Origin: Clostridia bacterium
GTDB lineage: Bacteria > Bacillota > Clostridia > Christensenellales > Aristaeellaceae
Direction: 5' to 3'
NCBI GenBank assembly: GCA_009784985.1
Contig: WQXF01000013.1
Coordinates: forward strand, 1-36,724
Length of the DNA stretch: 36,724 nucleotides
The position numbers and the translations under genes were made by a program. The notes under the pieces are model-generated. The model was given only the letters and a program-made list of their open reading frames with translations, was not told the origin of the DNA and searched no databases. Below, one piece after another: positions 8,357 to 34,485 of this stretch. How positions within the stretch are numbered: position 1 is the stretch's first letter; each line of letters begins with the position of its first letter.

Positions 8357-9205
8357 TCACTCCTTCATTGCCTCCAGTGTTTCCTCGATAACCTCCAAGA
8401 GTACCCCGCCCGCGTAAGATGGCGCGTACCTGCCGGGCAGCGAAGGTTCGATCCACGCTTTTCTGCCCAACTTTTTGGCCGCGTCAAAATCCACGCCGTA
8501 GGGCGCGCTGGCAAGGTCGATGATCCGTACCCCGGGCCGGGTGATGCACAGCAGCGCTTCGTCCAGCACCATGGCTGGCACGGTATTAAACACAAATTGC
8601 ATCTCGCTGATACGCCGGGGCAATTCCGGGTAATCGCAGGCATCGTGGCCCTCGGCGCGGATCCAGGCGCGGTCTTTGCCCTTGCGGGCCACCACCAGCA
8701 CCTGGGCGCCCAACCCCCGGAGCATCCACGCCAGCAACCTCCCCAACCGGCCATATCCCAACACCAAGCAAGCGCTGCCGTGCACGCAGGTATCCGACGA
8801 AGTCATGGCCGCGCTGATCGCTCCTTCGGCGGAGGGCACGGTATTGCCCACGGCAAAGGATTCCTCCCAGCCGGGATTGAGCACCTGCCAGTGCCGCAAT
8901 TGGGCCGCGCTCTGCAACACATCCCCCAGCGAACCGGTAAGTACCCGGGATTTTTGCGGCAATTGCACCGCCACATCCTGGGCGGGCAACGGCTGTGTGG
9001 CCAGGGGCGTAAGGATCATGCCGTCGCGCTCACAAAAGGGATAGGGCAGCATGACGATGTCGTGGTCCATATCCTTTGGCCATTGGCACACAAAAGCCGG
9101 GTCAAACTGATCCAGCCACACCGCGTCCACCTGCCAACCTTTTTCCATGGCACGTTTGGCCAGGTATCCGTTCCGTTTATCGCCGCCCACTACCAGCAAA
9201 CGCAT
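8357..9205 (-). CDS. dpaA: Dipicolinate synthase subunit A
   Basis: The 282-residue protein matches SpoVFA/DpaA. The N-terminus reads MRLLVVGGDKRNGYLAKRAMEKGW. A second Rossmann element, CLVLGYGRLGRLLAWMLRGLG near residues 143-163, binds NADP, and the DASDYPELPRRI-like and NTVPAMVLDEALL blocks are characteristic. It supplies the oxidoreductase part of dipicolinate formation during sporulation. The ATG at 9205 is preceded by AGAGGGGATGC; the frame continues upstream to 9295 but runs through the promoter region. dpaA and dpaB are 6 nt apart and form a two-gene operon. A sigma-K-like promoter sits 31-58 bp upstream. The presence of this pair supports an endospore-forming host. Confidence 0.93.
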   Translation of the reverse strand: MRLLVVGGDKRNGYLAKRAMEKGWQVDAVWLDQFDPAFVCQWPKDMDHDIVMLPYPFCERDGMILTPLATQPLPAQDVAVQLPQKSRVLTGSLGDVLQSAAQLRHWQVLNPGWEESFAVGNTVPSAEGAISAAMTSSDTCVHGSACLVLGYGRLGRLLAWMLRGLGAQVLVVARKGKDRAWIRAEGHDACDYPELPRRISEMQFVFNTVPAMVLDEALLCITRPGVRIIDLASAPYGVDFDAAKKLGRKAWIEPSLPGRYAPSYAGGVLLEVIEETLEAMKE

Positions 9206-9235
9206 GCAAGCATCCCCTCTTCCCCAGCTACTTGC

Positions 9236-9262
9236 AGTGTATGAGGCCTGAGGGCTTTTGTG
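9236..9262 (-). promoter_or_regulatory. Candidate sigma-K promoter of dpaAB
   Basis: On the minus strand GCAC (plus 9260-9263) is followed, 16 nt later, by CATACACT (plus 9236-9243). This fits the B. subtilis sigma-K pattern AC-N16/17-CATAnnnT. It lies about 31 bp upstream of the dpaA start, and spoVF is a known sigma-K target in B. subtilis. No sigma-A promoter is apparent for dpaA. Confidence 0.5.
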
Positions 9263-9263
9263 C

Positions 9264-9292
9264 TTGACGATGGGGACACCGCATGCTATAAT
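9264..9292 (+). promoter_or_regulatory. Promoter of tRNA-Ser
   Basis: TTGACG (9264-9269) and TATAAT (9287-9292) are 17 bp apart, 34 bp upstream of the mature tRNA 5' end. It is directly back to back with the candidate dpaA promoter. Confidence 0.8.
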
Positions 9293-9326
9293 CATCGGCG
9301 TCGATCCGTGTCCGATTTATGCTTAT

Positions 9327-11674: not shown

Positions 11675-11703
11675 TTGACAAACCTCACTGCCCCGGTTAA
11701 CAT
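11675..11703 (+). promoter_or_regulatory. Promoter of the oligosaccharide transport/GH65 operon
   Basis: TTGACA (11675-11680) and TAACAT (11698-11703) are 17 bp apart. A palindromic operator follows directly at 11708-11725, covering the predicted transcription start, so repression by a bound regulator would be expected. Confidence 0.8.
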
Positions 11704-11707
11704 AAAG

Positions 11708-11725
11708 AAGTTAACCGCTAAACTT
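11708..11725. promoter_or_regulatory. LacI-type operator 1 (before the solute-binding protein gene)
   Basis: AAGTTAACCGCTAAACTT is an 18-bp palindrome centred on CG, with two mismatched positions per half. It shares GTTnAnC-GCTnAAC with the sites at 19538-19551 and 19672-19685. A LacI-family gene at 20508 is the obvious candidate for its ligand. Confidence 0.7.
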
Positions 11726-11759
11726 AGCGCAAGGGCTACTAATTAGAAGGGGGATTACC

Positions 11760-13232
11760 ATGAAAAAGCGCATCCGGTTTTTAGCCATTCTTGCATCCCT
11801 TTGCATCCTTCTCACGGCCTACACCCCCGCAGTGATGGGTTCTTCGGCCTCGGCGGCATCGTCCGAACTCGAAGGTATATCCGCCGAAGTCGTCGACGCC
11901 GATCTCACCTGTACCATCACGTTAGGCAACTGGCCGCCGGACACGGCTCCTGCCGCCGAGCTGGCTTTGTTTGAGGGCTATAGGGCCATTATGCAGTTGC
12001 AATACCCCAATGTGACCGTTGTTCCCGCGTATTTTTCCTACACCCTCAGCAATTACCTGCCCATGGCAAGGGGCGGCACGGCGCCTACTGTTTTTCAGCC
12101 CCCCTTTACCGACCCGCAGTTGCTCATCAATCAAAACCTTGTGGCCGATGTGACCGATGCGCTGGAGCAGTTCGGCATTCTTGAAAAATTCAGCCCCAGC
12201 TTCGTTGAGCTGCTGGGCGACGAGAACGGACGGATATATGGCCTGCCCCGGGACGGATACGTGCTGGGCATGCATATCAACATCAATCTTTTCGAGCAAG
12301 CCGGCCTGATGACCGATGACGGCCTGCCCATGATTCCCAAAACCCTTCAGGAGCTGGCTGAGTACGGGCAGATTATTCGCGAAAAAACCGGCAAGGCCGG
12401 CCTCGTGTTCCCGGCGAGCGAAACCTTTGGCGGCTGGCTGTATACCAACATCGCGTGGAATTACGGCGCCGTGGGAGAAAACGCGTTGCAGTATCAGGAT
12501 GCCGATGGGCGCTGGATGGCCAACTTCACCTCCGAACCGGCAGTTGCCGCCATGGAATACCTGCGCTCCCTGCGCTGGGACTATGACATCCTCAATGCCG
12601 ACGCCACCACAACCGACTGGGCCAGCGCCCACTCTTTCCTCGGTACCGGCGAGGCCGCCATGAACTTCGCCGCCGATGATTCCGTGGCCGAGCCTACGGC
12701 GGGCGGGGGCCTGGCGGTTGACAAATTTGCGCTGATCCCTTTCCCGGCCGGTCCGGGCGGTGCGTATGCACTGACTGGTGGCACCTGCTTTATGTTCGCA
12801 CCCGACACCACCCATGATCAGGCTGTGGCAACGCTTGGTTTCTTAAGGATCATCGGCATGCTGCCCTTTGCAAGCGACGATATTGTGGCAGGGATGCGTG
12901 CCGGCGCGGCTGCCAGGCGTGAGCGGGGGGTTCCCGTTCTTCCGCCCATCCCGGCATGGAATGATGCGGATTTTATCGCGGTTCAGCGTGAGATCGCCGA
13001 GGAATACGCCAATGTGGATATGCGCTTGTATCAAGATTTTTTTGATTCCCTTACCGACGGTTCAGTTGCGTTAAAGGGCGAGGAACCCGTGTTCGCCCAG
13101 CAGCTCTACCGGGAGCTTACCTCGGTGATCCAAAGGCTCATCACAAGAGAAGACGCCGACGTTTTAAGAGCGCTTAGCCAGGCGCAGGAAAGGTTCCAAG
13201 AATATTTGGACGACGAACTCAACAATCGATAA
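11760..13232 (+). CDS. ABC transporter extracellular sugar-binding protein
   Basis: The 490-residue protein fits the UgpB/MalE-type solute-binding family (family 1): a signal peptide, an early strand TCTITLGNWPPD, then LALFEGYRAIMQLQYPNVTV, the GRIYGLPRDGYVLGMHININLFEQAGL hinge region and the EAAMNFAADD block. Its partner permeases follow directly, so it captures an oligosaccharide for import. The signal peptide has no clear lipobox (no Cys with a small residue before it near the cleavage site), which is unusual because Gram-positive binding proteins are normally lipoproteins; cleavage after SASA is more likely. The ATG at 11760 has AGAAGGGGG upstream. It is controlled by the promoter/operator at 11675-11725. 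The GH65 gene downstream suggests an alpha-linked oligosaccharide as substrate. Confidence 0.88.
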   Translation: MKKRIRFLAILASLCILLTAYTPAVMGSSASAASSELEGISAEVVDADLTCTITLGNWPPDTAPAAELALFEGYRAIMQLQYPNVTVVPAYFSYTLSNYLPMARGGTAPTVFQPPFTDPQLLINQNLVADVTDALEQFGILEKFSPSFVELLGDENGRIYGLPRDGYVLGMHININLFEQAGLMTDDGLPMIPKTLQELAEYGQIIREKTGKAGLVFPASETFGGWLYTNIAWNYGAVGENALQYQDADGRWMANFTSEPAVAAMEYLRSLRWDYDILNADATTTDWASAHSFLGTGEAAMNFAADDSVAEPTAGGGLAVDKFALIPFPAGPGGAYALTGGTCFMFAPDTTHDQAVATLGFLRIIGMLPFASDDIVAGMRAGAAARRERGVPVLPPIPAWNDADFIAVQREIAEEYANVDMRLYQDFFDSLTDGSVALKGEEPVFAQQLYRELTSVIQRLITREDADVLRALSQAQERFQEYLDDELNNR

Positions 13233-13247
13233 GTAAAAACGCACCAG

Positions 13248-13282
13248 AGGGGATTGGCATGCAATCCCCTTTGATTTTGTTA
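13248..13282 (+). terminator. Intercistronic hairpin between binding-protein and permease genes
   Basis: A 9-bp perfect stem (13248-13256 with 13262-13270) with a short loop is followed by a T-rich TTTGATTTTGTT. It lies between the binding-protein gene and the first permease. The U-tract is imperfect, so partial termination or 3'-end stabilisation is likely, giving more binding protein than permease. Confidence 0.65.
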
Positions 13283-13306
13283 TGTCAAAGGAAGGAGGTA
13301 GGCGCG

Positions 13307-14197
13307 GTGGGAAAATTGAAGCCAAGAACAAGGCAACAAATGATAAGCTGGCTCATCATGCTGCCCGGCATTCTGCTTTTTGCCTTTTTTGTATGGGCGC
13401 CCTTGCTGCAGAGCATCCAAATGAGCCTATACCGCACGAGGAATATAGAGCTCTTGGAATTTGTGGGTTTCAACAATTACATCAGCATCTTTAGGCGCGA
13501 AGAATTTCATCAGGCCCTCGTCAATACCTTCTCCTATACATTTTGGTCGCTTTTGATCGGATTTTTGATCCCTATCTTCATGGCGTTGGTGATTGGGGAG
13601 ACCGTGCGGGGCAAAGGTTTTTTTCGCACCGCCGCCTATGTTCCCAACATCCTGCCGGGGCTCGCCGCCATCATCTTATGGACAGCGTTTTTTTCCGCCG
13701 AAGCTACGGGCGTGATCAATATCCTGTTGAGCAAATTAGGGATTGAGCGAATGGCTTTTTTAAGCCAAGCAAACCTGGTGATCCCCATCATTGTGCTCAC
13801 CGCCACCTGGAAGGGGGCGGGCGCAACGGCGCTGATCTACATGGCGGGCCTTTCCGGCATCAACCCGGAATTATACGAAGCCGCCACCATCGATGGCGCC
13901 GGTATCATCAAACGCATCCGCCATATCACGTTGCCGGCCATCTTTAGCCTGGGCAGCACGCTGCTCATTCTGCAGATCATCTCCATCTTCCAGATCATGT
14001 ATGAGCCGCTGGTCCTCACCAAGGGCGGCCCCGATAACGCCTCTCTGTCACTGATGCTATTGATGTGGCGTTACGCCTTTGGGGGGACGATGGATTTTGG
14101 CAGGGCTTCGGCTGTGGCGGTGATCATCTCGGTGATTTTGCTTGGATTTACCGCTTTGTATTCCATCGTCAACCGGCGAAAAACCGAGTGGGAATAG
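13307..14197 (+). CDS. ABC sugar transporter permease (first subunit)
   Basis: The 296-residue protein has six predicted membrane segments and the binding-protein-dependent transport EAA loop, seen here as INPELYEAATIDGAGIIKRIRHITLPAI near residues 182-210. It is a UgpA/MalF-type subunit of a carbohydrate ABC importer. The GTG at 13307 is chosen because AAGGAGGT lies seven bases upstream; the frame upstream to 13259 overlaps the intercistronic hairpin. The second permease starts 12 nt after its stop. No ATPase gene is in the window; a shared MsmK/UgpC-type ATPase elsewhere in the genome is expected. Confidence 0.92.
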   Translation: MGKLKPRTRQQMISWLIMLPGILLFAFFVWAPLLQSIQMSLYRTRNIELLEFVGFNNYISIFRREEFHQALVNTFSYTFWSLLIGFLIPIFMALVIGETVRGKGFFRTAAYVPNILPGLAAIILWTAFFSAEATGVINILLSKLGIERMAFLSQANLVIPIIVLTATWKGAGATALIYMAGLSGINPELYEAATIDGAGIIKRIRHITLPAIFSLGSTLLILQIISIFQIMYEPLVLTKGGPDNASLSLMLLMWRYAFGGTMDFGRASAVAVIISVILLGFTALYSIVNRRKTEWE

Positions 14198-14209
14198 GGG
14201 GTATGAAGT

Positions 14210-15070
14210 TTGAAACGCACAGGAATCATCCGCGATTTTGACAAATCAACGGTGAGCGTCAAGATCGGACTGACAGTGGTCTATTTGATTTGCCTGGTGA
14301 TTGTGTTGATCTCCCTTTTTCCTGTATTTTGGGTCAGCATGGCAGGTTTTAAGGATCTAAAAGAGTTTATGTCCTCTATCGCCATTCTGCCCGCTGCCTT
14401 TGACTTTTCACGGTATTTCAAAACATGGACACAGTTAAATATCGTACAGAATTACCTAAATTCCCTATATGCCATCCTGGGCAGCGTATTCTGCGCGTTG
14501 ATCTTTAATGGCCTTTTGGCCTATGGCCTGGCTATCTTAAAACCTAGGGGCCACAAAATCCTTCAGAATCTGGTGATGTTTTCGCTTCTAATCCCCGCCA
14601 CCATCAGTTTGGTGCCGCTCTTTATGAACATTCAAAACTTGAATCTGGGCGGCTTTTTTACGCCTCTGTGGCTGGCGGCGGGCGCAAGCGCTTTTTATGT
14701 GATTCTCTTCCGTCAGTTTTTTCAATCCCTCCCCTCTTCCCTGATCGAGGCGGGGCGGATCGACGGGTGCTCGCAACTGCAAACCTTCTTTAGGATCGTC
14801 CTGCCCCTCTCCAAGCCGATCTGCGTGGTTGTGGCCATCTTTGCCATCAACGGCGCGTGGAGCGATTTCCTTTTGCCCTATCTGGTTCTGGGGCAAGGAA
14901 GGTGGCAAACAGTGATGGTGCGGTTGTTTGTATTCAGCACCCAGCAGACCATCAATTACGATGACTTAATGCGCGCGGTGGTCTTTTCCATGATTCCGCC
15001 CATCATCTTATTTTTTGCTTTTCAAAAGCAGCTCACGGAAAACATCGTAACCGTTGGCATTAAGGGATAA
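14210..15070 (+). CDS. ABC sugar transporter permease (second subunit)
   Basis: The 286-residue protein fits the UgpE/MalG-type permease family, with six hydrophobic segments and an EAA loop reading SLIEAGRIDGCSQLQTFFRIVLPLSKP near residues 178-204. It pairs with the permease encoded just upstream to form the membrane channel. It starts with TTG at 14210, eight bases after AGGGGG; the nearby ATG at 14203 is in another frame and meets a stop quickly. The TTG start continues the habit of non-ATG starts in this operon. The GH65 gene begins 22 nt downstream. Confidence 0.92.
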   Translation: MKRTGIIRDFDKSTVSVKIGLTVVYLICLVIVLISLFPVFWVSMAGFKDLKEFMSSIAILPAAFDFSRYFKTWTQLNIVQNYLNSLYAILGSVFCALIFNGLLAYGLAILKPRGHKILQNLVMFSLLIPATISLVPLFMNIQNLNLGGFFTPLWLAAGASAFYVILFRQFFQSLPSSLIEAGRIDGCSQLQTFFRIVLPLSKPICVVVAIFAINGAWSDFLLPYLVLGQGRWQTVMVRLFVFSTQQTINYDDLMRAVVFSMIPPIILFFAFQKQLTENIVTVGIKG

Positions 15071-15092
15071 ATGGGGCAAAGGAGGCAGTCCA

Positions 15093-17348
15093 TTGGCAAA
15101 AGCACCCGATAAATATTTTCTAACCGATCCGTGGAAAGTGATTGAGCACGGCTTTGATCCTGCTTATGCACGGGTAAGTGAGTCGGTTTTTGCCCTTTCC
15201 AACGAAAACCTGGGCATTCGCGGATATTTTGACGAGGGCGGGAGCACGGACAGCCTGCGGGGCGCGTATATCAACGGTGTATATGAGCTGGAGGACCTGC
15301 CCAAGTCCTATCGCGGCATTGTGGATAAGACCCATTTTATGATCCCGGCGGCCGACTGGCTTTCTACCGAAATTTGTATGGATGGCGAGACGCTGGATTT
15401 AGGGAGTGCCCGATTCAGCGCCTTTACCCGGGAACTTGATATGCGCTCGGGCATGCTCCAGCGGCAGTTTATATGGCACACAAAATCCGGCAAGGACTTA
15501 AAGCTAACCTTTTTGCGTTTTTTGGATATGACCCACGGCGAGAGAGCTTACCGGCGCATCATTTTTGAGCCCCTGAATTTTTCGGGGATGGTTGAACTGT
15601 CCATGGGCATCACCTTTGAGGTAAAGCACGAGGGGCGGAACGCCTGTTTTTGGGGCAAGGGGCAGGTGGAGGTCACAGACTCCTTCTACGCCGTCCAGGC
15701 CCGCACGCTCTCGTCGGGGCAGGAGGTGTTCGCCGCCGCCCTGCTTGACTTCCCCGTCAAAACCACTCTCCACCTTACCCAAGGGACAACACAGCACGCC
15801 GACCAGCGATCCGTGATCCTCTTTGATCACACAGAGGGCGAGGCGCTATGGCAAGCAGGGCATTCCGCCCTAAAAAAAGCCGCAGCTGTTACCTTCAACG
15901 AAGCCCTTGAAGCGCAAAAAGCGTATTGGGCGGAGCATTGGCGGCTTTCTGATGTGGTGATCGAGCCGTTGGCTTCGGTGGATAGCTCTACGGTAGCCGA
16001 GGAGCAGCAGGGAATTCGTTTTTGCAGTTTTCAAATGGCACAAACCTATAACGGCGGCAGCGTGCGCCACAATATTGGCGCAAAAGGCTTAACAGGCGAA
16101 GCTTATAATGGCCACGCCTTTTGGGATACCGAAGCTTGCTGTTTGCCCTTTTATCTGTTTACCAATCCCAAAGCTGCCCGAAGGCTGCTTACCTTTCGTT
16201 ACAACACCCTGCCCCAAGCGATGAAGCGGGCAAAGATGCTGGACTGCGAGGGTGCGTGTTACCCCATCGCCACCCTAAACGGCGACGAGGCATGTAACCT
16301 ATGGCAGCACGCCAGCCTGCAATTCCAACCCAGTACCGCCGTGGCTTACGGCATCTGGCATTACGTCCGCGTCACGGGCGACCGGGCGTTTCTATGGGAA
16401 TATGGGGCTGAAATGCTTGTGCAAATTGCCCGGTTCCTAGTAAGCCGGGTGGCCCAGAACCCCCATACCGGCGAGTACGGCTATTATGGGGTGATGGGGC
16501 CCGATGAGTTCCACATGATGGTGAATAACAACGCTTATACCAATTACATGGGCAAACGCTCCCTTGAATACGCCGCCGAAGTCCTACTCGGCCTTCAAAC
16601 CGAAAAGCCGGAGGTATATACAGCTCTCGTCCAAAAAACAGGGCTTCTAGAAAATGAAATCGGCAAGTGGCAAAAGGTCGCCGCCCACATGGCTCTGCCC
16701 ATCACAAAAGAAGGCCTGATCGAACAGCATGACGGTTACTTCGATCTGCCCCATATGGATATCCATGCCATCCCCGTCACCGAGTTCCCTCTGTATAACC
16801 ACTGGTCTTACGACCGCATCTATCGCACGGATATGATCAAGCAGCCCGATGTGCTGATGTTTCTGTATCTGTATAACGCGTCCTTTTCAGCCGAGTTGAA
16901 GCGCCTGAACTACGAGTTTTACGAGCCACGCACCATTCACGAATCCTCCCTCTCCCCTGCCATTCATTCGATTTTGGCGGCCGAGCTGGGGCGGATGGAA
17001 GAGACCACAGATTTTTTCGGTTACGCCACCCGCCTGGATCTGGACAACTACAACCGCAACACCCACGAAGGGCTGCATACCACCTCCATCGCTATGGCCT
17101 GGGTCAACATCGTGTATGGTTTTGCAGGCCTGCGCAGTGATGGCGAAACGCTGCGCTTTGCGCCCCGCCTGCCTTCCCGCTGGAGGTGTCTGCGCTTTTC
17201 CCTCACCTGGCAAGAGCGGATTATTCAAATTGAAATGCACAAGGATAAGACACTGTTTACCCTACGGCAAGGAGAAGCCATGGCGCTTGTGGTTTATGAA
17301 AAACAAGTGGTGCTTGGCGGGGAAGGGCTAGCCGTCCTGGCGGAGTAG
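15093..17348 (+). CDS. Glycoside hydrolase family 65 disaccharide phosphorylase
   Basis: The 751-residue protein shows the GH65 pattern throughout: an N-terminal beta-sandwich with NENLGIRGYFDEG, then the (alpha/alpha)6 barrel with GHAFWDTEACCLPFYLFTNP, YPIATLNGDEACNLWQHA, GPDEFHMMVNNNAYTN (proposed general acid Glu near residue 472), EPRTIHESSLSPAIHSILAAELG and THEGLHTTSIAMAWVNIVYGF. GH65 enzymes mostly phosphorolyse alpha-glucosides (maltose, trehalose, kojibiose, nigerose, glucosyl-rhamnose) to beta-glucose 1-phosphate. The substrate cannot be fixed from sequence alone. It has no signal peptide and so is intracellular, handling sugars imported by the two permeases. The TTG at 15093 is preceded by AAAGGAGG; the frame upstream overlaps the permease. 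It ends the operon before a composite repeat. Confidence 0.93.
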   Translation: MAKAPDKYFLTDPWKVIEHGFDPAYARVSESVFALSNENLGIRGYFDEGGSTDSLRGAYINGVYELEDLPKSYRGIVDKTHFMIPAADWLSTEICMDGETLDLGSARFSAFTRELDMRSGMLQRQFIWHTKSGKDLKLTFLRFLDMTHGERAYRRIIFEPLNFSGMVELSMGITFEVKHEGRNACFWGKGQVEVTDSFYAVQARTLSSGQEVFAAALLDFPVKTTLHLTQGTTQHADQRSVILFDHTEGEALWQAGHSALKKAAAVTFNEALEAQKAYWAEHWRLSDVVIEPLASVDSSTVAEEQQGIRFCSFQMAQTYNGGSVRHNIGAKGLTGEAYNGHAFWDTEACCLPFYLFTNPKAARRLLTFRYNTLPQAMKRAKMLDCEGACYPIATLNGDEACNLWQHASLQFQPSTAVAYGIWHYVRVTGDRAFLWEYGAEMLVQIARFLVSRVAQNPHTGEYGYYGVMGPDEFHMMVNNNAYTNYMGKRSLEYAAEVLLGLQTEKPEVYTALVQKTGLLENEIGKWQKVAAHMALPITKEGLIEQHDGYFDLPHMDIHAIPVTEFPLYNHWSYDRIYRTDMIKQPDVLMFLYLYNASFSAELKRLNYEFYEPRTIHESSLSPAIHSILAAELGRMEETTDFFGYATRLDLDNYNRNTHEGLHTTSIAMAWVNIVYGFAGLRSDGETLRFAPRLPSRWRCLRFSLTWQERIIQIEMHKDKTLFTLRQGEAMALVVYEKQVVLGGEGLAVLAE

Positions 17349-17516
17349 GGCGCGACGCCCTCGGCGCGCCGTTGATTCACCCCAAAATAGCGCACCTTTA
17401 ATGCAATACGGCGGGCGATCAATGATCGCCCCTACAAGGATGACGGCGCGCCGGGGCGTCGCGCCCTACGATGGGAAATCCCGCCATTTCTGTAGGGGCG
17501 ATTATGAATCGCCCGC
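17348..17516. repeat. Composite inverted-repeat region between convergent genes
   Basis: A 24-25 bp GC-rich sequence (17348-17372) recurs inverted at 17443-17466 with one indel. A 26-bp unit with its own 8-bp hairpin (17411-17436; stem GGGCGATC/GATCGCCC) recurs inverted at 17491-17516. The units interleave. The region fills the gap between GH65 and the beta-helix gene, overlaps the GH65 stop codon by one base, and contains no gene. It probably serves as a bidirectional terminator and looks like a dispersed intergenic repeat family. Confidence 0.8.
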
Positions 17517-17534
17517 CCCTCGCTTTTTCTAGTT

Positions 17535-19514
17535 TTACTCGTAAATCTCAACCTCCGCAGCCTGCGCCCCGTTGGAACGGCCAGAGGAGTTTTCTGTAAA
17601 GATTAGCTTCACAAATCGTGCCGGGGCCGGTGCAAAATCCACCCGCACAATATTGCCGGAATCCGAGTTAAATTCGTACCGTGTATTGGGCGCGACGCTA
17701 ACAAAGCTCTCGCCATCGGCGCTCACAAGAATCTCAAAGCTTTGGGTGCGGGGTTCCCAAATCGGGGCGGGGTTCAGGCGCACGGCCACGGTTTGGATGG
17801 TGTATGTATCCTCCAAGTCGATGATAACTTCCGCGGGCAAACCCTTGCTCTCCCAATAGGTCGTCGGCGCTCCATCCGTTACGTTGATGGCGGCGTATAC
17901 CTCGGTGACCTCCCCGGAGCTTGCCGGTTTTCCCAACGCAAGATTGGTTCCCTCGGGCAGTTGTACCCAATCCTCCTTGGGATCGGGGAAGATGGCCGGC
18001 CGCTCGGCCTGGGTCTGTTGGGGTGTGGGAACAATTGTTGTTTGGCCAACAGAAGACTCAACGGTGATATTGCGGGTAAATTCATTTGCATTTGCCCGCA
18101 GGCTCTGAAGGTCGGTGATCCTTTCCCCCAAAATGGTTACATTGCGTATGGTAACGTTTTCAATCATATGCTTTTCGCTGTGCCCGGTAAAACGGGAGGC
18201 GGGCACCCTGCCATCCAGGGTATTCACAACGGTGAGCCCATCGATCAGGATATCTTTGATGGAGCCCCACTCGTCCCGCACGGCGGACCAGCCGCTTTTG
18301 TTCATATGGAACTCGATCAGTTCGTTATTGACGCCGTTATCGCCCCGCATAAAAGCATTCTCCACCACGATGTTCCGGTAGGTGATGTTGCGGACGACCG
18401 CGTCGTCGCTGTTGTGGATGCTGATCACCGGTTTGTGGTTGTTATACAGCACGGTGATATCCTGAAAAAGAACGTCGTAAATCTCGGGGTTGATGGTAAG
18501 CCCCTTGTTGGTCTCGTAGCCGATTTCCATCGATTGGGCCAAATCTGTCCAAATTTGGATTCTCTCAAAGGTGATGTCCCTGGTGGAGCCGGAATAGTTT
18601 TTCAGCACCAAACTGTCGTCCCAGGTGCGGGCAAAGGAATCAACAACCGTGTGGTTTCTGCAGGATTGAAAGGTGAAACCGTCGCCGTTTTGGCGCCCGG
18701 ATATGATTTTGACATTGGAGATATGGGCGTTCTCGCTGGCGTACGAATTAAAGTTCCAGCAGTTGGCGTTGGCAATGATAAAACCCTCGGCGGTGATATT
18801 TTTGCTGTTGCGGATGTCGATGGGCACCCGGGCGTAGGAGCCGGGTTGGTTATGCCCGGGGAAGTCTGAGCCGTCGATGATGCCACGCCCCCTAATGGTT
18901 ACGTTTTCGGCGTTATCGACGATCACCACAGAGTTCACCACCGCGCCGCCCGATATATAAAGGGTCTGATCGCTCTTGACGGCGATGGCGTCCAGCCTCC
19001 AGTGCCCCGGCTCGATAAACAATACGTTGGGGTCGTTTTTGTCGGGGATGTCAGTTTCCAGGGGGTTGGCGAATATGTGGGTTGCTTTGTTCACATGCCC
19101 GTTGTATACCACGGTATAGAATCCCGGCTCGCTGATGGTGAAGCTAACCCGGTTGTCCCGAACTGTGGGGATGATGCCGTGGGAGGTGGGCAAGACCGCC
19201 GCGCTTTCAATGTCTTTGTTGAGCCCCGGCATCTCGATTTCGATTTTGACTTGGCCCTCAACGTCAAAATAGGCCATGGGCGTGTCGGAGGGTATGGTGT
19301 TGGCGTTCCATATGTGCTCATGATTCACCATCACGTCATACACAAATAGTTCGTTCCCGTCCACCCAAATAGACGCGGTTTGGGATGAGGTCATGGTTGT
19401 GGGGCCCTCGTAAAGAACAAGGATGGGCATGTTTTCCGCACTTGCCGTGCATAAAAAGGCGGTGAATACCACACACAAGATCACAAGGAAATAAAAGGTG
19501 CTTTTTGCAGCCAT
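17535..19514 (-). CDS. Secreted right-handed beta-helix glycosidase with C-terminal discoidin (F5/8 type C) domain
   Basis: The 659-residue protein has a signal peptide (cleavage near ASA, residue 26), an N-terminal beta-rich part, a parallel beta-helix (about 190-480) and a discoidin/CBM32-like domain from about 520 (NLALGKPASSGEVT, ITDGAPTTYWESK-like, IIDLEDTYTIQTVAVRLNP, FVKLIFTENSS). The helix carries NGDGFTFQSC (Asp near 279) and WDDSLVLKN (DD near 299), matching the Asp and Asp-Asp of clan GH-N enzymes (GH28 polygalacturonases, GH49 dextranases). The GH28 GHG motif is absent: AQSMEIGYE stands at that place, closer to GH49-like enzymes. It likely cleaves a polysaccharide outside the cell; the discoidin domain would bind glycan. 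AAAGGAGG precedes the ATG. It has a strong promoter with a LacI-type operator, so it belongs to the sugar regulon. Confidence 0.85.
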   Translation of the reverse strand: MAAKSTFYFLVILCVVFTAFLCTASAENMPILVLYEGPTTMTSSQTASIWVDGNELFVYDVMVNHEHIWNANTIPSDTPMAYFDVEGQVKIEIEMPGLNKDIESAAVLPTSHGIIPTVRDNRVSFTISEPGFYTVVYNGHVNKATHIFANPLETDIPDKNDPNVLFIEPGHWRLDAIAVKSDQTLYISGGAVVNSVVIVDNAENVTIRGRGIIDGSDFPGHNQPGSYARVPIDIRNSKNITAEGFIIANANCWNFNSYASENAHISNVKIISGRQNGDGFTFQSCRNHTVVDSFARTWDDSLVLKNYSGSTRDITFERIQIWTDLAQSMEIGYETNKGLTINPEIYDVLFQDITVLYNNHKPVISIHNSDDAVVRNITYRNIVVENAFMRGDNGVNNELIEFHMNKSGWSAVRDEWGSIKDILIDGLTVVNTLDGRVPASRFTGHSEKHMIENVTIRNVTILGERITDLQSLRANANEFTRNITVESSVGQTTIVPTPQQTQAERPAIFPDPKEDWVQLPEGTNLALGKPASSGEVTEVYAAINVTDGAPTTYWESKGLPAEVIIDLEDTYTIQTVAVRLNPAPIWEPRTQSFEILVSADGESFVSVAPNTRYEFNSDSGNIVRVDFAPAPARFVKLIFTENSSGRSNGAQAAEVEIYE

Positions 19515-19537
19515 ATACAGAAACCTCCTTTGATTGG

Positions 19538-19551
19538 GTTAAGCGCTAAAC
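19538..19551. promoter_or_regulatory. LacI-type operator 2 (before the beta-helix glycosidase gene)
   Basis: GTTAAGCGCTAAAC has half-sites GTTAAGC and GCTAAAC with one mismatch, centred on CG. On the minus strand it lies immediately downstream of the -10 element, over the predicted transcription start. Confidence 0.75.
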
Positions 19552-19558
19552 TACAACC

Positions 19559-19587
19559 AGTATACAATGGAGGCGGGACGGTTGCAA
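19559..19587 (-). promoter_or_regulatory. Promoter of the beta-helix glycosidase gene
   Basis: On the minus strand TTGCAA (plus 19582-19587) and TATACT (plus 19559-19564) are 17 bp apart, 45 bp upstream of the start codon. Operator 2 follows directly downstream. Confidence 0.75.
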
Positions 19588-19639
19588 GAGGCTTTCAAAA
19601 AACACCACAAAAAACTATGCACAATTTTTGCGAAAGCAC

Positions 19640-19668
19640 TTGACAGCAGGGTATGTCCCTGCTAAACT
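19640..19668 (+). promoter_or_regulatory. Promoter of the small secreted protein gene
   Basis: TTGACA (19640-19645) and TAAACT (19663-19668) are 17 bp apart. A CCCTGCT/AGCAGGG inverted repeat lies in the spacer, and operator 3 follows directly. Confidence 0.8.
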
Positions 19669-19671
19669 CAG

Positions 19672-19685
19672 GTTAAACGCTCAAC
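19672..19685. promoter_or_regulatory. LacI-type operator 3 (before the small secreted protein gene)
   Basis: GTTAAACGCTCAAC has half-sites matching at five of seven positions with a central CG. It is placed directly after the -10 element, as in operators 1 and 2. Confidence 0.65.
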
Positions 19686-19709: not shown

Positions 19710-20432
19710 ATGAAAAAGACGCTTAGTTTGGTTCTCGCGTTCCTGCTGGTGTTTGCCTGCGCCGCCTCCAGTTTGGCCAGCGAGGTATTCCCCTGGAACG
19801 ACTTCACCGGTCGCGACCCGCAAAACAAACCCGAACTGGCCCCCAACGGCATGAACATTTGGTGGGACAACTGGGCCAACCTGCGCTCCAGCAACGAAGA
19901 CGATGTGATCCAAATCCAGTTCCGGCCCAGGGAATTTGATCCCGACGATTATGACGACGAAGACGATTACTTCGCCAGGGCTGCCGACTGGATGGGCAAC
20001 TGGGGAGAGGCCATCAACATGTGGGCCTTGGAAGACATCGCGTATTGCAAGTACTTCACCATCCGCATGAGCGGTGGCGAAGGCGGCGAAGAGAACAAGC
20101 TGATCCTTCACTTCCAGCCCGAAGACGGCCCCTCTTTTGTGAAGCTGTTCTCCGAACTGGTGACTGCGGACGGCGGCAATGTGGTGATCACCACAGAAAT
20201 GCAGGATATCGTCATCGATCTGGAAGCCTCTGGTTTCCCCGGCATGACCAACCGCATGCACATCCGCGCGTTTGCCCCCTGCGTCATCTCCCTGGATGAG
20301 CTTTACTTCTCCGAGCCCATCGCCCTGATCGACACCACCAGCCAGGAGACCATCCTGGGCGGCTTTACCGTCGAAGCCATCGGCAACCCCGCCGATCTGC
20401 CCATTAAGGATTATCTGGCCGCGTTGGAGTAA
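19710..20432 (+). CDS. Small secreted acidic protein, possible carbohydrate-binding beta-sandwich
   Basis: The 240-residue protein has a clear signal peptide (MKKTLSLVLAFLLVFACAASSLAS, cleavage near residue 24). The mature part is acidic and rich in Trp and Asp early on (WNDF, WWDNWANL, a DDYDDEDDY stretch). It then alternates short strands ending YCKYFTIRMSGG, KLILHFQPED, MHIRAFAPCVISLDELYFSEP. That ending resembles galactose-binding-like beta-sandwich modules, whose last strand often reads DELYF. I find no catalytic motif. It is expressed from its own strong promoter with a LacI-type operator and sits between the beta-helix enzyme and the LacI gene. A role in binding or presenting the polysaccharide is an inference from this context. 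AAAAAAGGAG precedes the ATG. Confidence 0.75.
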   Translation: MKKTLSLVLAFLLVFACAASSLASEVFPWNDFTGRDPQNKPELAPNGMNIWWDNWANLRSSNEDDVIQIQFRPREFDPDDYDDEDDYFARAADWMGNWGEAINMWALEDIAYCKYFTIRMSGGEGGEENKLILHFQPEDGPSFVKLFSELVTADGGNVVITTEMQDIVIDLEASGFPGMTNRMHIRAFAPCVISLDELYFSEPIALIDTTSQETILGGFTVEAIGNPADLPIKDYLAALE

Positions 20433-20457
20433 TCCGAAAAATGAACAATACAACGGT

Positions 20458-20486
20458 AAGGGCGGATTTAACATCCGCCCTTATTG
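20458..20486 (+). terminator. Hairpin between the secreted-protein gene and lacI-type gene
   Basis: AAGGGCGGAT (20458-20467) pairs with ATCCGCCCTT (20473-20482), a 10-bp perfect stem with a 5-nt loop. The following TTATTG is a weak U-tract, so termination may be partial and the regulator may be transcribed by readthrough. I see no separate strong promoter for the regulator. Confidence 0.6.
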
Positions 20487-20507
20487 TCGATACAGGGGGA
20501 GGAAAAT

Positions 20508-21518
20508 GTGACCACACTCAAAGATATCGCACGGGAGGCCGGCGTCAGCATTACCACGGTCTCCAACGTCATCCACAACAAACCCAATAGGGTCTCGCCC
20601 GAACTGGTGGCAAAGATACAAGAGCTCATCCGCCGGGAGAGCTATGTCCCAAGCATGACGGCGCGCACCTTGGCCAACAACACCTCGCCCATCATCGGGG
20701 TTATCAACCATGTGATCTCCCGGCACGGCGGCGGGTTTATGGCGGATCCGTTTCATAACACATTTATAGGCAGCATCGAAGATTGCACCCGCAAAAAGGG
20801 CTATTTTGTGATGGTGCGGACAGTAGAGGATTCCCGCGGCCTAGAAACCATCCACCGCAACTGGAACCTTGCGGGCATCATTCTTCCGGGCATGTTTTGT
20901 GATGGTTTTTTTGAAACGGTACGCAAAATCGGCATCCCCTATGTGCTGATAGATAGTTACATCGACCTGCCCCAGGTCTGCAATGTGGGGCTGGAGGATC
21001 AAAAAGGCGGATACATGGCCACACGGCATCTGCTGGAGCGTGGCCACCGCGTTATCGCATTCACCTCACCCTTTATCCGGGAAAACGGCGTGGTTGAGAA
21101 GCGCCTGCAAGGGTATCAGCAAGCTTTGAAGGAATTTGGCATCCCCTTTGAGCGTGAGCTCGTGTTTGAGCAAGAGATATCCGTAGAAGAAGGGGTGAAA
21201 CTAGGGCGCCTTTTAAGCGATAGGGAAAAAATCACCGGCATCTTTGCCTCTGCCGATATCCTGGCCGCCGGAATCATGGCGGGGTTGCGCGAGGCGGGTG
21301 TGCATGTGCCCAATGATAAATCCATTGTTGGGTTTGATGATAACTATCTGTGCCAAATCACTCATCCACGCCTCACCACCATCCATCAGGACGTAGAGAA
21401 AAAAGGAACCCTCGCCACCGAAATGATGGTTGCCCAACTCTTAGGCAAGCCCATACAAGAAAGGCAGATCATCCTCCCCGTCCGTTTGGTAGAGCGGGAA
21501 AGTGTACGAAGTATTTAA
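20508..21518 (+). CDS. LacI-family transcriptional repressor of the sugar locus
   Basis: The 336-residue protein has the LacI N-terminal DNA-binding domain (LKDIAREAGVSITTVSNVIH) followed by a hinge helix (ELVAKIQELIRRESYVPSMTARTLA) and a periplasmic-binding-protein-like sensor domain with the GVINHVIS, GIILPGM, FASADILAAGIMAGLREAGVHVPNDKSIVGFDDN and HQDVEKKG signatures. It likely binds a sugar released from the substrate and derepresses the three promoters with related operators. The GTG at 20508 has GGGGGAGG upstream; an in-frame TTG at 20484 has none. Its stop codon overlaps the left inverted repeat of the element at 21518-21648 by one base. The C-terminus (RLVERESVRSI) looks complete for the family. 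Confidence 0.92.
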   Translation: MTTLKDIAREAGVSITTVSNVIHNKPNRVSPELVAKIQELIRRESYVPSMTARTLANNTSPIIGVINHVISRHGGGFMADPFHNTFIGSIEDCTRKKGYFVMVRTVEDSRGLETIHRNWNLAGIILPGMFCDGFFETVRKIGIPYVLIDSYIDLPQVCNVGLEDQKGGYMATRHLLERGHRVIAFTSPFIRENGVVEKRLQGYQQALKEFGIPFERELVFEQEISVEEGVKLGRLLSDREKITGIFASADILAAGIMAGLREAGVHVPNDKSIVGFDDNYLCQITHPRLTTIHQDVEKKGTLATEMMVAQLLGKPIQERQIILPVRLVERESVRSI

Positions 21519-21648
21519 TACTACTTCCCGATTAAAAACGCAGCAAGGATCGTGAAGGATTTTGTGTTAACGCTACGCTGAGTGGAGAAGGCAACGCGAT
21601 AACGCAAAAGACAAGCGAGACGCTACGCTTTTAGTCGGGAAGTAGTAT
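21518..21648. mobile_element. MITE-like element with 20-bp terminal inverted repeats
   Basis: Terminal sequences at 21518-21537 and 21629-21648 are inverted copies with one mismatch (ATACTACTTCCCGATTAAAA on the left). The 91-bp interior holds two copies of ACGCTACGCT (21570-21579 and 21620-21629) and no open frame. Its size, terminal repeats and lack of coding are typical of miniature inverted-repeat elements. It sits exactly at the stop codon of the LacI gene and could also act as a transcript-ending hairpin. No clear target-site duplication is visible beyond possible T/A-rich flanks. Confidence 0.6.
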
Positions 21649-21681
21649 AAATTCGGCGTCCATTATTTTAAGTCAAGAGCG

Positions 21682-25397: not shown

Positions 25398-25629
25398 TGG
25401 CTATTCCTCCCGCATCATATACCACTTATCTTATGCGGAATCAGGCAGGAGGTTCTTGCTTGTGAGGTGTGGCTAAAAATGATGATTTCTTTTGCTTTTT
25501 CTGTTGCGGCGTTCCCATAAGATATGGTATGATTGCCAAAAGAAAGATAAATTGAGAGCCTTATCCTTTTGTGATGTTTTGTATGCCTGTACCAATCACA
25601 TCTACTGTATTACACAAGGAGGATTACTT
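25398..25629. other. Intergenic region between divergent ZIP and CAP/Ig genes
   Basis: It holds the ZIP ribosome site and a weak plus-strand promoter-like pair: TTGCGG, 18 bp, then TATGAT. No repeat or operator stands out. The frame of the CAP gene extends back to 25492, but without a ribosome site. Confidence 0.4.
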
Positions 25630-28600
25630 ATGAAACTCAAGACTTTGGCGCTGATCTTGGCTCTGCTAATGGTGGTTATGCCCATGATGCAATCCCTGAT
25701 CGAAGCAGGTATTGGCCCCGTGTACGCGGATGAATCGGAAACCAATGAGCCAAAAACGCCCGAGCCTGAACCCACGGAGGCGCCAACGCCGGAGCCGACA
25801 AAGGCGCCCGAGCCAACCGAGACGCCGGAAATTCCCACGCCGGAGCCAACGCCCACTGCTGGGCCTGATGATGAACCAACGCCTGAGCCGGAACCGGATG
25901 CACCGGCAATGGAACCGGCCAGCTTTATGCCTTTTAACACGACGACCAACCAGGCCTTTATTGATGAGGTTGTGCGGTTGGTGAATGTGGAGCGGGCAAA
26001 AGTAGGAAAGCCTGCCCTCATAGGCATACATCCGGCGCTTAACGCCGCCGCCGCCATTCGTGCTGAAGAGCTTATTGAGCTCTTTTCACATACACGCCCC
26101 GACAGTCGGGCTTGGGAAACCGTTCTTAATGAACAAGGCATCATCTACACGGCTTGGGGAGAAAACATCGCGATGGGCCAAATAACGCCTGCCGAAGTGG
26201 TAACCGATTGGATGGATTCCCCTGGCCACAAAAGGAATATATTGGATGAAACTAGCTTGGATTACAATTATATAGGCGTTGGCCACGCATTTATTGCCAG
26301 TGAGGGGCACCATTGGGTGCAGTTGTTTATCAGAGCGGACATTCCCGCCACGGCCATTTCACTTTCCAATACAAACCTGGCACTCCTCACGGAACAATCC
26401 TCCACGCTGACCCCCACGCTCACCCCCGCACACAGTTCAGATATCGTCACTTGGGTTTCTAGCGCACCAGGGGTGGCGACGGTAAGCGAAGCAGGTGTGG
26501 TGACGGGCGTATCCGGCGGCACGGCAACAATTACCGCTACGGCTCACACCGGGGTAGTTGCCACATGTTCCGTTACCGTAACGGCTAACTCTGCTATTCC
26601 CCCAACATCCATCCTACTAAGCGCCACGACAAAACACCTTGCGGTAGGCGACACCTTTGAGCTGCTCCCCACGGTGTTGCCTGTCAATGCTACAGAAGGA
26701 CCCATAACCTGGGTTACCAGTGACGACAGTGTCGTTTGGGCGCCAGATGGTGAATTGATCGCGGTGGGGCCGGGCACGGCGACCGTCACCGCTGTGACAT
26801 GGAACGGCCTCATGGCTTCCTGCACTGTTACGGTGTCCGCCGGGCCCACGCCTACACCCGCTATTTTGCCGGAATCGATCACATTTAACGTAACGGAAAA
26901 GCATCTTGTGGTAGGCGAAACCTTTCAGCTGATCCCCTCGGCATTGCCTGACGGCGCTTCAACCGAAATTTTTACCTGGCATACCAGCGACGGCAATGTC
27001 GTTTGGGTGCCGGATGGCAACCTGATCGCGATAGGGCCGGGTACGGCAACCGTAAACGCAGTAACATGGAACGGTGTCATCAGTTCCCCCTGCACCGTTA
27101 CAGTAAGCATTGAGCCGACGCCCACACCAGCGGCAACACCCACGCCAACGCCCACACCTACACCAACACCTACACCTACCCCTGATATTGATCCAACAAC
27201 AATCACACTAAACGAAACAACAAAAGAGCTTGTGGTAGGCGAAACCTTTACGCTGATCCCCACGATATTGCCTGCCGACGCTGCAAACAAGACTGTGACT
27301 TGGAGCAGCAGCAACACGGCAATCGCCACGGTGTTAAACGGCACGGTGACCGCGGTGGCGCCGGGTACGGTGATTGTCTCGGCTCAGACACACAACGGAT
27401 TGACCGCTGACTGTGAAGTGATCGTGGCGCCCATTCCCGTCTCCTCCATCACGGTAACCGGCGCAGGCAATGCAACAACCATCACCGCCAAGGGCGACAC
27501 GTTGCAGATGGACGCGGCTGTGCTGCCCGCAAACGCCACCAACCCAACCGTAACCTGGTCGGTGATCAATGGAACGGGCAGCGCGACAATAAGCAGCAGC
27601 GGCCTGCTTGCCGCCACCACCAACGGCACGGTAACGGTGCGGGCCACGTCCAATAGCAACTCCTTGGTGTTTGGGCAGCGTGTGATTACCATTAGTGGGC
27701 AGCCCGTTGTTACCGGCGTAACTGTATCGCCCCCCACGACCACGGTCCGGCAGGGCGAAACGGAATCCTTTACGGCGGTCGTAACAGGAACAAACAACCC
27801 CGATCCGGCCGTGACATGGGCAGTCGAGGGCGGCCTTCCCGGCACAACAATCACGGGCGGCATGCTTTCCGTGGCGGCAGATGAAACGGTGGCAACGCTG
27901 ACGGTGCGGGCGACCTCGGTGGAAGATAACAGCAAATCCGGCACGGCGACCGTAACCGTTGTCAGCAGCCACAATCTGGAGAAAGTCACCATGCAGGGAG
28001 AGAAGACAATTATCCTCACCCTTACAGAAGATGAAACAAAGCAGTTGACCGTTGCTTACATACCCGCAAGCACTCCTCAAACCGGTATCGGATGGGTATC
28101 CAACAACCCAGGCGTTGCAACAGTTGATGAAGCAACCGGGCTTGTTACGGCGGTTTCGCCCGGTTCGGCCTCGATAGGGGCTATCTCCACCCATAACGCC
28201 GGCATCTTCGATTACGTTTGGGTGCGGGTTATGCCGACCCCAGCGCAAACGCCCCAATACGTGATCCGTTCAGGTACGGAAAATGTGGTCAGCATTACGG
28301 AAGATTTTGTGCGGAACAATGACTTTAACCTGACCGTCGTAAACACCCAACCTTCGGAGGAACCCATGCTCGCCTCGGCCTTCACATGGAGATCCAGCGA
28401 CACGAGGGTGGCGACGGTGGCCGCAACCGGTGCTGTGAGGCACATCTCGCCCGGTATCGCCACGATTACGGCCACCGTCAAGGCAGGGGCGGACAGAGGA
28501 AAAACCGCGGAGATGGTTCTTACTTTAAAAGATAGGATGCCCCGCCTGCCAGTCTCTACGATCACATTAAACACAAACTCGGTGGGCACGCTGTTTGCCG

Positions 28601-31722: not shown

Positions 31723-33126
31723 TTACTGTGGCAAAAATGTTTGCAGCGGAAAACTCTTGGAAACCGCGTCCCGCGCCTCGGCCACATCCCGGAACACACC
31801 GCAAGCAATCATCTGGGCGATCAGGTTGCCCAGGGCCGTACCTTCCACCGGGCCGGCATACAGCGGCAGCCCGGTGGCATTGGCCGTGAGCTGATTCAAG
31901 TACGCGTCCTGGCTGCCGCCGCCCACGATATGGATATTCTCGTATGCCACGCCGGTGATGCCGGACAGAGCCGTAATCGCCGCCCCATAACAATGGGCAA
32001 GGCTACGGTACACGCATTGCAGCGCCTGGCCCGCGGTGCCCGGCACAGGCTGACCCGTATCGGCGCATGCGCCCTTTACCTCTTGGAGCATATTGTCCGG
32101 CGTAAGAAAGCGACGGTGATTCACATCGATCACGCTTGGGAAGTCCTCGGCCTCCCTCGCCAGGGCGGCAAGCTCCGGATAGGTGTGATGGCCGCCAAGG
32201 TCACGCCGGATGGATTGCAGCATCCATAACCCCATGATGTTTTGTAAAAAGCGATAATTTTTACCATACCCGCCCTCGTTGGTAAAACCGGCTTCCCAAG
32301 CCGCTTGGGTGGTGACCGGCGATTTTTGCTCCACGCCCAACAAGCTCCACGTGCCGCTGGAAAGATACACGGAGCGGGCGCCCCGTGCGGGGATCGCCAC
32401 AAACGCGCTGCCTGTATCGTGGGTGGCAGGCAGCAGCACCTGGCAGTCGAAGCCCACCTCCGCCCGCACCCCATCGGTAAAACCACCTAAGGACGCACCC
32501 GGCATGGAAAGCTCACCAAACAACCGGCGGGGCAAACCAAGGGCGTCGAGCAGCGACGTTTCCCATGCCCTGGCGCGCACATCCAACAGCCCGGAGGTGG
32601 AGGCAATCGTATACTCTTGCTTTTGTGCGCCGGTTAACAAAAAGCCCAGGTAATCGGGCATCATCAATAAACTGTGGGCCTGGGCCAGCCGCTGGGGAAA
32701 GGCGCGCTTCAGGGCCATCAGCTGATAGATGGTGTTAAAAGGCTGGCGCTGGATGCCGGTTTTTTCGTAAAGCTCTGGAAAGGGCACGATACGCTCCACT
32801 TCCTGCTCCATGCCCTCGGTGCGTTTGTCCCGATAGGCCACGGCGTCGCCGATGCGTTGGCCCTGCTCGTTCAGCAGCACAAAGTCCACGCCCCAGGTAT
32901 CGATGCCCAAACTCACCGGGGCCTTGCCCACGTCCTTGGCGGCCCGCAAGCCCGCCAGGATATGCGCAAAAAGCGCGTCCACATCCCAACAGATATGACC
33001 GTCTTTTTCCATCATGCGGTTTTCGAACCGATACACCTGCTCCAACACGATCCGCCCGTCTTCCACATGCCCGAGTATGTGGCGTCCGCTCGACGCGCCG
33101 ATGTCCACCGCCAGATAACGATCCAT
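31723..33126 (-). CDS. rhaB: Rhamnulokinase
   Basis: The 467-residue protein is an FGGY-family sugar kinase. The start reads YLAVDIGASSGRHILG (phosphate loop), with ICWDVDALFAHILAG, SLGIDTWGVDFVLLNEQGQ, and later LLPATHDTGSAFVAIPA and SSGTWSLLGVE, all typical of RhaB. It phosphorylates L-rhamnulose to rhamnulose 1-phosphate in the cytoplasm. The length fits (E. coli 489, other RhaB about 470). AGAGGTGAGCCC precedes the ATG at 33126. It is the last gene of the rhaA - aldolase - small ORF - rhaB operon and ends at a bidirectional terminator. Confidence 0.94.
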   Translation of the reverse strand: MDRYLAVDIGASSGRHILGHVEDGRIVLEQVYRFENRMMEKDGHICWDVDALFAHILAGLRAAKDVGKAPVSLGIDTWGVDFVLLNEQGQRIGDAVAYRDKRTEGMEQEVERIVPFPELYEKTGIQRQPFNTIYQLMALKRAFPQRLAQAHSLLMMPDYLGFLLTGAQKQEYTIASTSGLLDVRARAWETSLLDALGLPRRLFGELSMPGASLGGFTDGVRAEVGFDCQVLLPATHDTGSAFVAIPARGARSVYLSSGTWSLLGVEQKSPVTTQAAWEAGFTNEGGYGKNYRFLQNIMGLWMLQSIRRDLGGHHTYPELAALAREAEDFPSVIDVNHRRFLTPDNMLQEVKGACADTGQPVPGTAGQALQCVYRSLAHCYGAAITALSGITGVAYENIHIVGGGSQDAYLNQLTANATGLPLYAGPVEGTALGNLIAQMIACGVFRDVAEARDAVSKSFPLQTFLPQ

Positions 33127-33179
33127 GGGCTCACCTCTTATTACAGCTCTTCATCAGTCATTAAGTTTATGGGTGCCCT

Positions 33180-33329
33180 CTATTCCCAATTGATAGCGTC
33201 GTCGGGCACAACGTCTCCACGTGCAAAATTGGCTTCGGCTTGCTCCAACATAATTGCTTCTGTGGGTGTAACCTTTGTGAAGTCTGGATCCCATGCCAGC
33301 ACCAATCTCTTGACGAATGCCTTCATCAT
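33180..33329 (-). CDS. Small antitoxin-like protein inside the rha operon
   Basis: A 49-codon frame starts at ATG 33329 (or the adjacent ATG at 33326) after AGGGAGGGTGC and ends at TAG 33180-33182. The product reads MMKAFVKRLVLAWDPDFTKV, then TPTEAIMLEQAEANFARGDV and a DDAINWE end. The LAWDPDFTKVTPxEA...EAE...INW layout recurs in small proteins of Firmicutes often annotated as hypothetical or antitoxin-like. No toxin gene follows: the 53 nt to rhaB hold only a few codons. Another frame, with an ATG overlapping the stop of the aldolase gene, runs through this region, but I consider it a shadow. Its function is unknown; an orphan antitoxin or operon-control peptide is possible. Confidence 0.65.
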   Translation of the reverse strand: MMKAFVKRLVLAWDPDFTKVTPTEAIMLEQAEANFARGDVVPDDAINWE

Positions 33330-33392
33330 GCACCCTCCCTATACCCGGTGCATCAAGATTCTCCAAACCAGCCACCAAATCCTTCAGTGGCA

Positions 33393-34481: not shown

Positions 34482-34485
34482 CGTA

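Follow-up and report, generated by a model that had tools for sequence, protein, structure and literature searches.

Genes and promoter–palindrome pairs of the locus

The stretch of DNA analysed here (the window) comprises 36,724 nt of contig WQXF01000013.1 from an uncultured, gut-type Clostridia bacterium (assembly GCA_009784985.1) and carries sugar-use genes beside a gene for a LacI-family regulator. A preliminary description of this DNA had proposed that three promoters, each followed by a palindrome, tie genes 8 kb apart into one LacI regulon. On the plus strand, an operon begins with an extracellular sugar-binding protein of the SBP_bac_1 family (11760–13232, 490 aa; PF01547, E 3.2e-17) and continues with two ATP-binding cassette (ABC) permeases (13259–14197 and 14210–15070, both PF00528) and a 764-aa alpha-glucoside phosphorylase of glycoside hydrolase family 65 (GH65; 15054–17348). 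The GH65 protein carries the N-terminal PF03636, central catalytic PF03632 (E 5.5e-114) and C-terminal PF03633 domains, and its nearest solved chain is 6w0p. A minus-strand gene at 17535–19514 encodes a secreted beta-helix glycosidase (residues 1–490, PF00295) with a C-terminal F5/8 (discoidin) domain (PF00754). Two further plus-strand genes encode a 240-aa secreted protein (19710–20432), for which no Pfam family was found, and a 336-aa LacI-family repressor (20508–21518) with a helix-turn-helix domain (PF00356, E 6.6e-14) and a periplasmic-binding-protein-like effector domain (PF13377, E 1.9e-34). The GTG at 20508, preceded by GGGGGAGG, is the most likely lacI start according to the orthologue alignment. 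The binding protein, the beta-helix glycosidase, the small secreted protein and the LacI gene adjoining it all stand where they had been described.

Direct reading and a scan located the three promoters at the coordinates first proposed, each with a 17-bp spacer and each with a related CG-centred palindrome behind it. Promoter A of the importer/GH65 operon (11675–11703, plus strand; TTGACA-N17-TAACAT) has its −35 element at 11675–11680 and its −10 element at 11698–11703; predicted operator A, AAGTTAACCGCTAAACTT (11708–11725, plus strand), with the core GTTAACCGCTAAAC at 11710–11723, overlaps the expected +1. Promoter B of the beta-helix gene lies on the minus strand (19559–19587; TTGCAA-N17-TATACT), as does predicted operator B, GTTTAGCGCTTAAC (19538–19551). 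Promoter C, in front of the small secreted protein gene (19640–19668, plus strand; TTGACA-N17-TAAACT; −35 at 19640–19645 and −10 at 19663–19668), is followed by predicted operator C, GTTAAACGCTCAAC (19672–19685, plus strand). Promoter-like matches alone were not above chance in the window (7 found vs 8.9 expected), so the weight of the evidence rests on their pairing with the palindromes. The symmetrised pattern GTTNANCGNTNAAC had three matches in the window where 0.04 would be expected, and at least three matches were reached in 0 of 100 window shuffles.

We then scored the whole assembly, a draft of 2.86 Mb (92% complete, 206 contigs), by pattern searches rather than with a weight matrix. 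A stricter earlier pattern, GTTNANCGCTNAAC, matched only the three places in the window, while its reversed control gave 2 matches. With one mismatch allowed, the genome stood at background (49 matches per strand vs 65 in the control), and no further regulon members were found elsewhere in the genome. The motif is therefore not scattered over random positions of the assembly, an outcome that the preliminary description had named as one that would refute it. One other exact match to a relaxed pattern, GTTGATCGATGAAC at C3:13791, was rejected, as it lacks the R/Y positions of a real operator.

Conservation of the palindrome and its co-occurrence with the LacI gene

A search of 200 relatives yielded eleven close LacI orthologues with 61–65% identity. 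In the ten relatives with usable flanks, the palindrome was present upstream of 29 of 29 intact orthologues of the three gene starts: 9/9 for the binding protein, 10/10 for the beta-helix protein and 10/10 for the small secreted protein. As the motif had been fixed from the window alone, this count is an independent prediction. Scans of whole genomes gave 2–3 sites per genome for the 11 that have a LacI orthologue, all located, to the extent that the contigs reveal it, at the LacI locus; 13 family members without the orthologue, picked by hand from the table of relatives, had none. The footprint and the co-occurrence support the proposal that a single LacI regulon spans the genes 8 kb apart. 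In one genome (G090), the LacI orthologue has an in-frame TAG (L061:8997–9995) and its operators are intact.

Related genomes by the dozen retain the repressor-binding sequence at the corresponding genes. Across 80 named loci, which include many metagenome-assembled genomes from the rumen and, by isolate names, the termite gut, close LacI orthologues travel with the importer, GH65 and usually the beta-helix gene. Many Clostridia have the gene set alongside this LacI, and so does Treponema, with partly different content. The recognition helix and the operator covary across these relatives. LacI proteins with the recognition-helix core TTVSNV mostly retain the operator, even at 50% identity; that of Treponema bryantii, with the slightly different helix QTVSNV, goes with the operator variant GTTGAGCGTTCAAC; and where the helix is changed (VSxATVSYV and similar), the relatives have no operator.

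Over 66 sites outside the window, the operator consensus is GTTTARCGYTAAAC, and the window's own three sites are slightly weaker versions of it. In the consensus proposed earlier, GTTnAnC-GCTnAAC, the fixed GCT describes only half of what the relatives show to be a symmetric sequence. Because a pattern was used to choose the sites of the geometry set, its fixed columns are invariant by construction, and the independent evidence on the operator is the 29/29 upstream count together with the genome-wide counts. The exact 17-bp spacing held for all three promoters of the window but is typical rather than strict overall: 45 of 69 assigned sites have it, and the remainder have 16 or 18 bp. The orthologous importer promoters read TTGACA-N17/18-TATAAT, and most binding-protein promoters of the relatives match TTGACA/TATAAT at all 12 positions.

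In binding-protein promoters the operator begins 6–10 nt past the −10 element, and at other sites mostly within 15 nt. This placement over the expected transcription start is the classic spot for a LacI repressor that blocks initiation. Typical operators of LacI regulators are even palindromes with a central CG, 140–30 bp upstream of starts (PMC4052901). For operators B and C, looping of the DNA between them was considered and is unsupported, since their spacing varies from 132 to 161 bp in relatives with no fixed helical phase. One relative has an additional near-operator, ATTGAACGTTAAAC, within the −35/−10 spacer of the small secreted protein's promoter (L055:10981–10994).

The predicted regulon and alternative explanations

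On this sequence evidence, the three promoters very probably belong to a local LacI-family regulon in which they are jointly repressed and are released by a sugar. The mechanism that we infer for binding, repression and induction is as follows. LacI (20508–21518) would bind as a dimer to the CG-centred palindrome GTTTARCGYTAAAC, and the operators would overlap the transcription starts of the three promoters, where bound LacI would block RNA polymerase. The regulated genes would be those of the ABC oligosaccharide importer and the cytoplasmic GH65 phosphorylase, the secreted beta-helix glycosidase, and the secreted carbohydrate-binding protein; lacI would probably be transcribed by read-through from promoter C. 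An oligosaccharide released outside the cell would then be imported, and it or a breakdown product would bind the LacI effector domain and free the three promoters together. GH65 would cleave this sugar, probably alpha-glucosidic, to beta-glucose 1-phosphate.

Two other accounts of the palindromes were weighed against this regulon. CG-centred palindromes are common to many LacI-family proteins (PMC4052901) and the genome has seven LacI genes, which would suit binding by another regulator, either a global LacI protein of the CcpA type or a different member of the seven. However, the genome has only three sites, all near the LacI gene of the locus; the 13 relatives that lack the adjacent-type LacI but have other LacI proteins are without sites; and the five other LacI proteins that were read, all of the six but the one at L009, have different recognition helices. 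We consider such a regulator very unlikely. The lack of enrichment of promoter-like matches on their own would also allow the pairs to be chance resemblances in upstream DNA, but no shuffle reached three motif matches and the 29 orthologous regions and the genome-wide co-occurrence contradict chance, so that a random origin of the three motif sites was ruled out and we give this account practically no credence.

Several observations nevertheless weigh against the local regulon or limit its extent. No operator was found immediately ahead of lacI, which is separated from the upstream secreted protein gene by a hairpin with a 15-bp stem (approximate limits 20453–20487, plus strand; z −4.0 vs shuffles); autoregulation is therefore uncertain. 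Regulator autoregulation is common, not universal, in local LacI regulons. Some distant orthologues (e.g., L121, L123, L127 and L128) have no matching site in the DNA examined, and an additional operator site could be missing from our assembly because it is a draft. Just upstream of lacI, orthologues of the Lachnospiraceae type have a palindrome whose centre is altered, GTTTAACCTTAAAC or GTTTAACATTAAAC (L101:9964, L107:9967, L109:9965, L111:4913 and L124:9960). These off-consensus palindromes are possibly a weak autoregulatory operator.

The predicted arrangement resembles known local LacI carbohydrate regulons (Ravcheev et al. 2014, PMC4052901; RegPrecise), which likewise have a CG-centred palindrome of even length close to the start codon, a small number of operons per genome, genes for ABC sugar transporters and glycosidases, and an adjacent regulator. 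Such palindromes near the start codons of sugar-use operons make up the majority of the LacI operators described (PMC4052901). In the literature searched, with RegPrecise outside the search, we found no published operator or regulon for the orthologous group of this LacI, no occurrence of the exact palindrome GTTTAACGTTAAAC, and no paper combining GH65, LacI, regulon, operator and phosphorylase. Familiar as the wiring is, neither the regulator nor its sugar appears to have been described; the LacI orthologous group is new as far as this literature shows, and so are its operator and its list of genes. For a glycan-use system of many uncultured gut bacteria, the finding supplies the genes, a regulator and an operator, and a prediction of operators from nothing but raw sequence stood up to comparison across genomes.

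The substrate of the pathway

We lean moderately towards an alpha-glucosidic oligosaccharide as the sugar. In pairwise alignments, the GH65 residues at positions 64, 392, 394, 402, 416 and 585 read F-A-L-N-Q-S. The signature FAITQA at these positions marks alpha-1,3-oligoglucan phosphorylase of GH65 subgroup 4 (PMC8537180); three of the six residues are identical to it and three differ, with positions 64 and 416 depending on the alignment. The Lachnoclostridium phytofermentans counterpart reads F-A-I-S-Q-T. Both sets of residues are near the signature of alpha-1,3-oligoglucan phosphorylase and unlike those of maltose (KV[MF]NES) or kojibiose (EEAPxx) phosphorylase.

The L. phytofermentans KNHs2131 locus (L101), presumably the Cphy_3310–3314 region of that species, resembles the window in having, in one block, a related LacI (52% identity), a GH28-type beta-helix gene, a HAD hydrolase gene, a GH65 pair and an importer. 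It differs from the window in having a second GH65 gene and operators that deviate from the consensus. In strain ISDg, the adjacent Cphy_3313/3314 are a nigerose phosphorylase and an alpha-1,3-oligoglucan phosphorylase (PMC8950772). KNHs2131 has just two GH65 genes, adjacent and at the LacI locus; from gene order, this pair would correspond to Cphy_3313/3314. The HAD hydrolase gene adjoins lacI in L. phytofermentans and plausibly encodes a beta-phosphoglucomutase. The nigerose cluster Cphy_1874–1877 of the same species also combines GH65, an ABC transporter and LacI regulators with a putative endo-acting glucanase (GH87) nearby; it differs in its glycosidases (GH87 and GH31), and the parts of the source consulted do not describe an operator (PMC9061262).

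The beta-helix protein gives mixed signals. By sequence it belongs to GH28, which speaks against an alpha-glucosidic substrate: its PF00295 match scores 30.6 bits against a cut-off of 22.9, and NCBIfam rhamnogalacturonidase and polygalacturonase also match it, all far under their cut-offs. GH28 has a GHG motif. In the alignment, GHG was not found in the window protein, which has GYE after the DD motif, and RIK was not seen. The beta-helix domain was modelled with a predicted local distance difference test score (pLDDT) of 92. The best whole-chain structural matches of this model are GH49 isopullulanase and dextranase (3wwg, 1wmr, 6nzs and 1ogm), which share its predicted N-terminal beta-sandwich and right-handed beta-helix and align over 418–423 residues with Z 30–34 (3wwg: Z 33.7, 418 residues, root-mean-square deviation 2.9), while GH28 pectinases match mainly over the beta-helix. 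The identity to these GH49 enzymes is only 16–18%, no GH49 family match was obtained in Pfam at E 0.1, and the sequence search gives GH28 instead. Catalytic aspartates are expected in either family. D278, D299 and D300 are invariant in 27 beta-helix sequences and, as expected, fit the catalytic aspartates of GH28 or GH49. In most relatives the F5/8 domain is a protein in its own right, encoded downstream and equipped with a signal or anchor segment, whereas in the window it is fused to the beta-helix.

The chief alternative keeps the sites as operators of the adjacent LacI but directs the pathway at pectin fragments, with a GH28-type galacturonidase or rhamnogalacturonidase and with GH65 handling a minor or glucosyl-rhamnose product. 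Besides the GH28 and NCBIfam matches, it draws on Cphy_3310, presumed from gene order to be the L. phytofermentans counterpart of the beta-helix enzyme: this GH28-annotated protein was studied on homogalacturonan, where its activity was enhanced by an esterase (PMC4230839). It is also consistent with the existence of a GH65 glucosyl-rhamnose phosphorylase (PMC8950772) and with a rhamnose-use set in the window (31723–35730; L-rhamnose isomerase, FGGY kinase and class II aldolase genes). Yet this set has no LacI operator and lies away from the regulon in every relative examined, and on these grounds it was rejected as part of the regulon; the GHG motif is absent and the RIK motif was not seen; and the closest whole-chain structures are alpha-glucanases, matched over both domains. 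We regard a pectin pathway as less likely, though the homogalacturonan evidence is why our preference for an alpha-glucosidic substrate is only moderate.

The 240-aa protein is predicted to form a CBM29-like jelly roll (model pLDDT 89). The model resembles carbohydrate-binding modules of families 29, 8, 11 and 30 (Z 9.5–10.8); the CBM29 match, with Z 10.8 and 10% identity, is tied with CBM8 and near CBM11 and CBM30. In several relatives the protein is duplicated or tandem-fused with 2–3 units (L080:8409–9830, L088:4674–6131 and L131:7700–9835). With a chance that we put somewhat short of even, the locus may represent an undescribed glycan-use pathway of termite-gut and rumen Clostridia, and of Treponema with partly different gene content, in which a beta-helix family intermediate between GH49 and GH28, a discoidin partner and a new secreted CBM29-like binding protein would feed alpha-glucooligosaccharides to GH65. 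Through the regulon, GH65 phosphorolysis is linked to a secreted protein of unknown function and to an enzyme whose substrate is unsettled, which makes the substrate testable with a handful of purified proteins.

Further features of the window

A strong hairpin with a 12-bp stem (13245–13273, plus strand), identified by scan and direct reading, lies between the binding-protein and first permease genes; hairpins of this kind often lower permease expression relative to the binding protein. Since the first ATG of the permease 1 open reading frame falls in the hairpin loop, the true start is probably downstream. The gap between the GH65 and beta-helix genes (17349–17534) consists of short repeats found widely in the genome (114 matches). 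A second GH65 gene occupies this position in the nearest relatives (L078 and L079); a genome search found no close copy of it in the source genome. Directly behind the lacI stop codon, a mobile-element-like repeat (21519–21650) with the inverted ends ACTACTTCCCGATTAAAA and TTTTAGTCGGGAAGTAGT has other copies in the genome. Elsewhere, a gene at 8357–9295 resembles dipicolinate synthase subunit A, under the family cut-off, and suggests a spore-forming ancestry. The 1644-aa protein encoded at 25492–30426 has a CAP domain and about eight bacterial Ig-like (Big_2) repeats.

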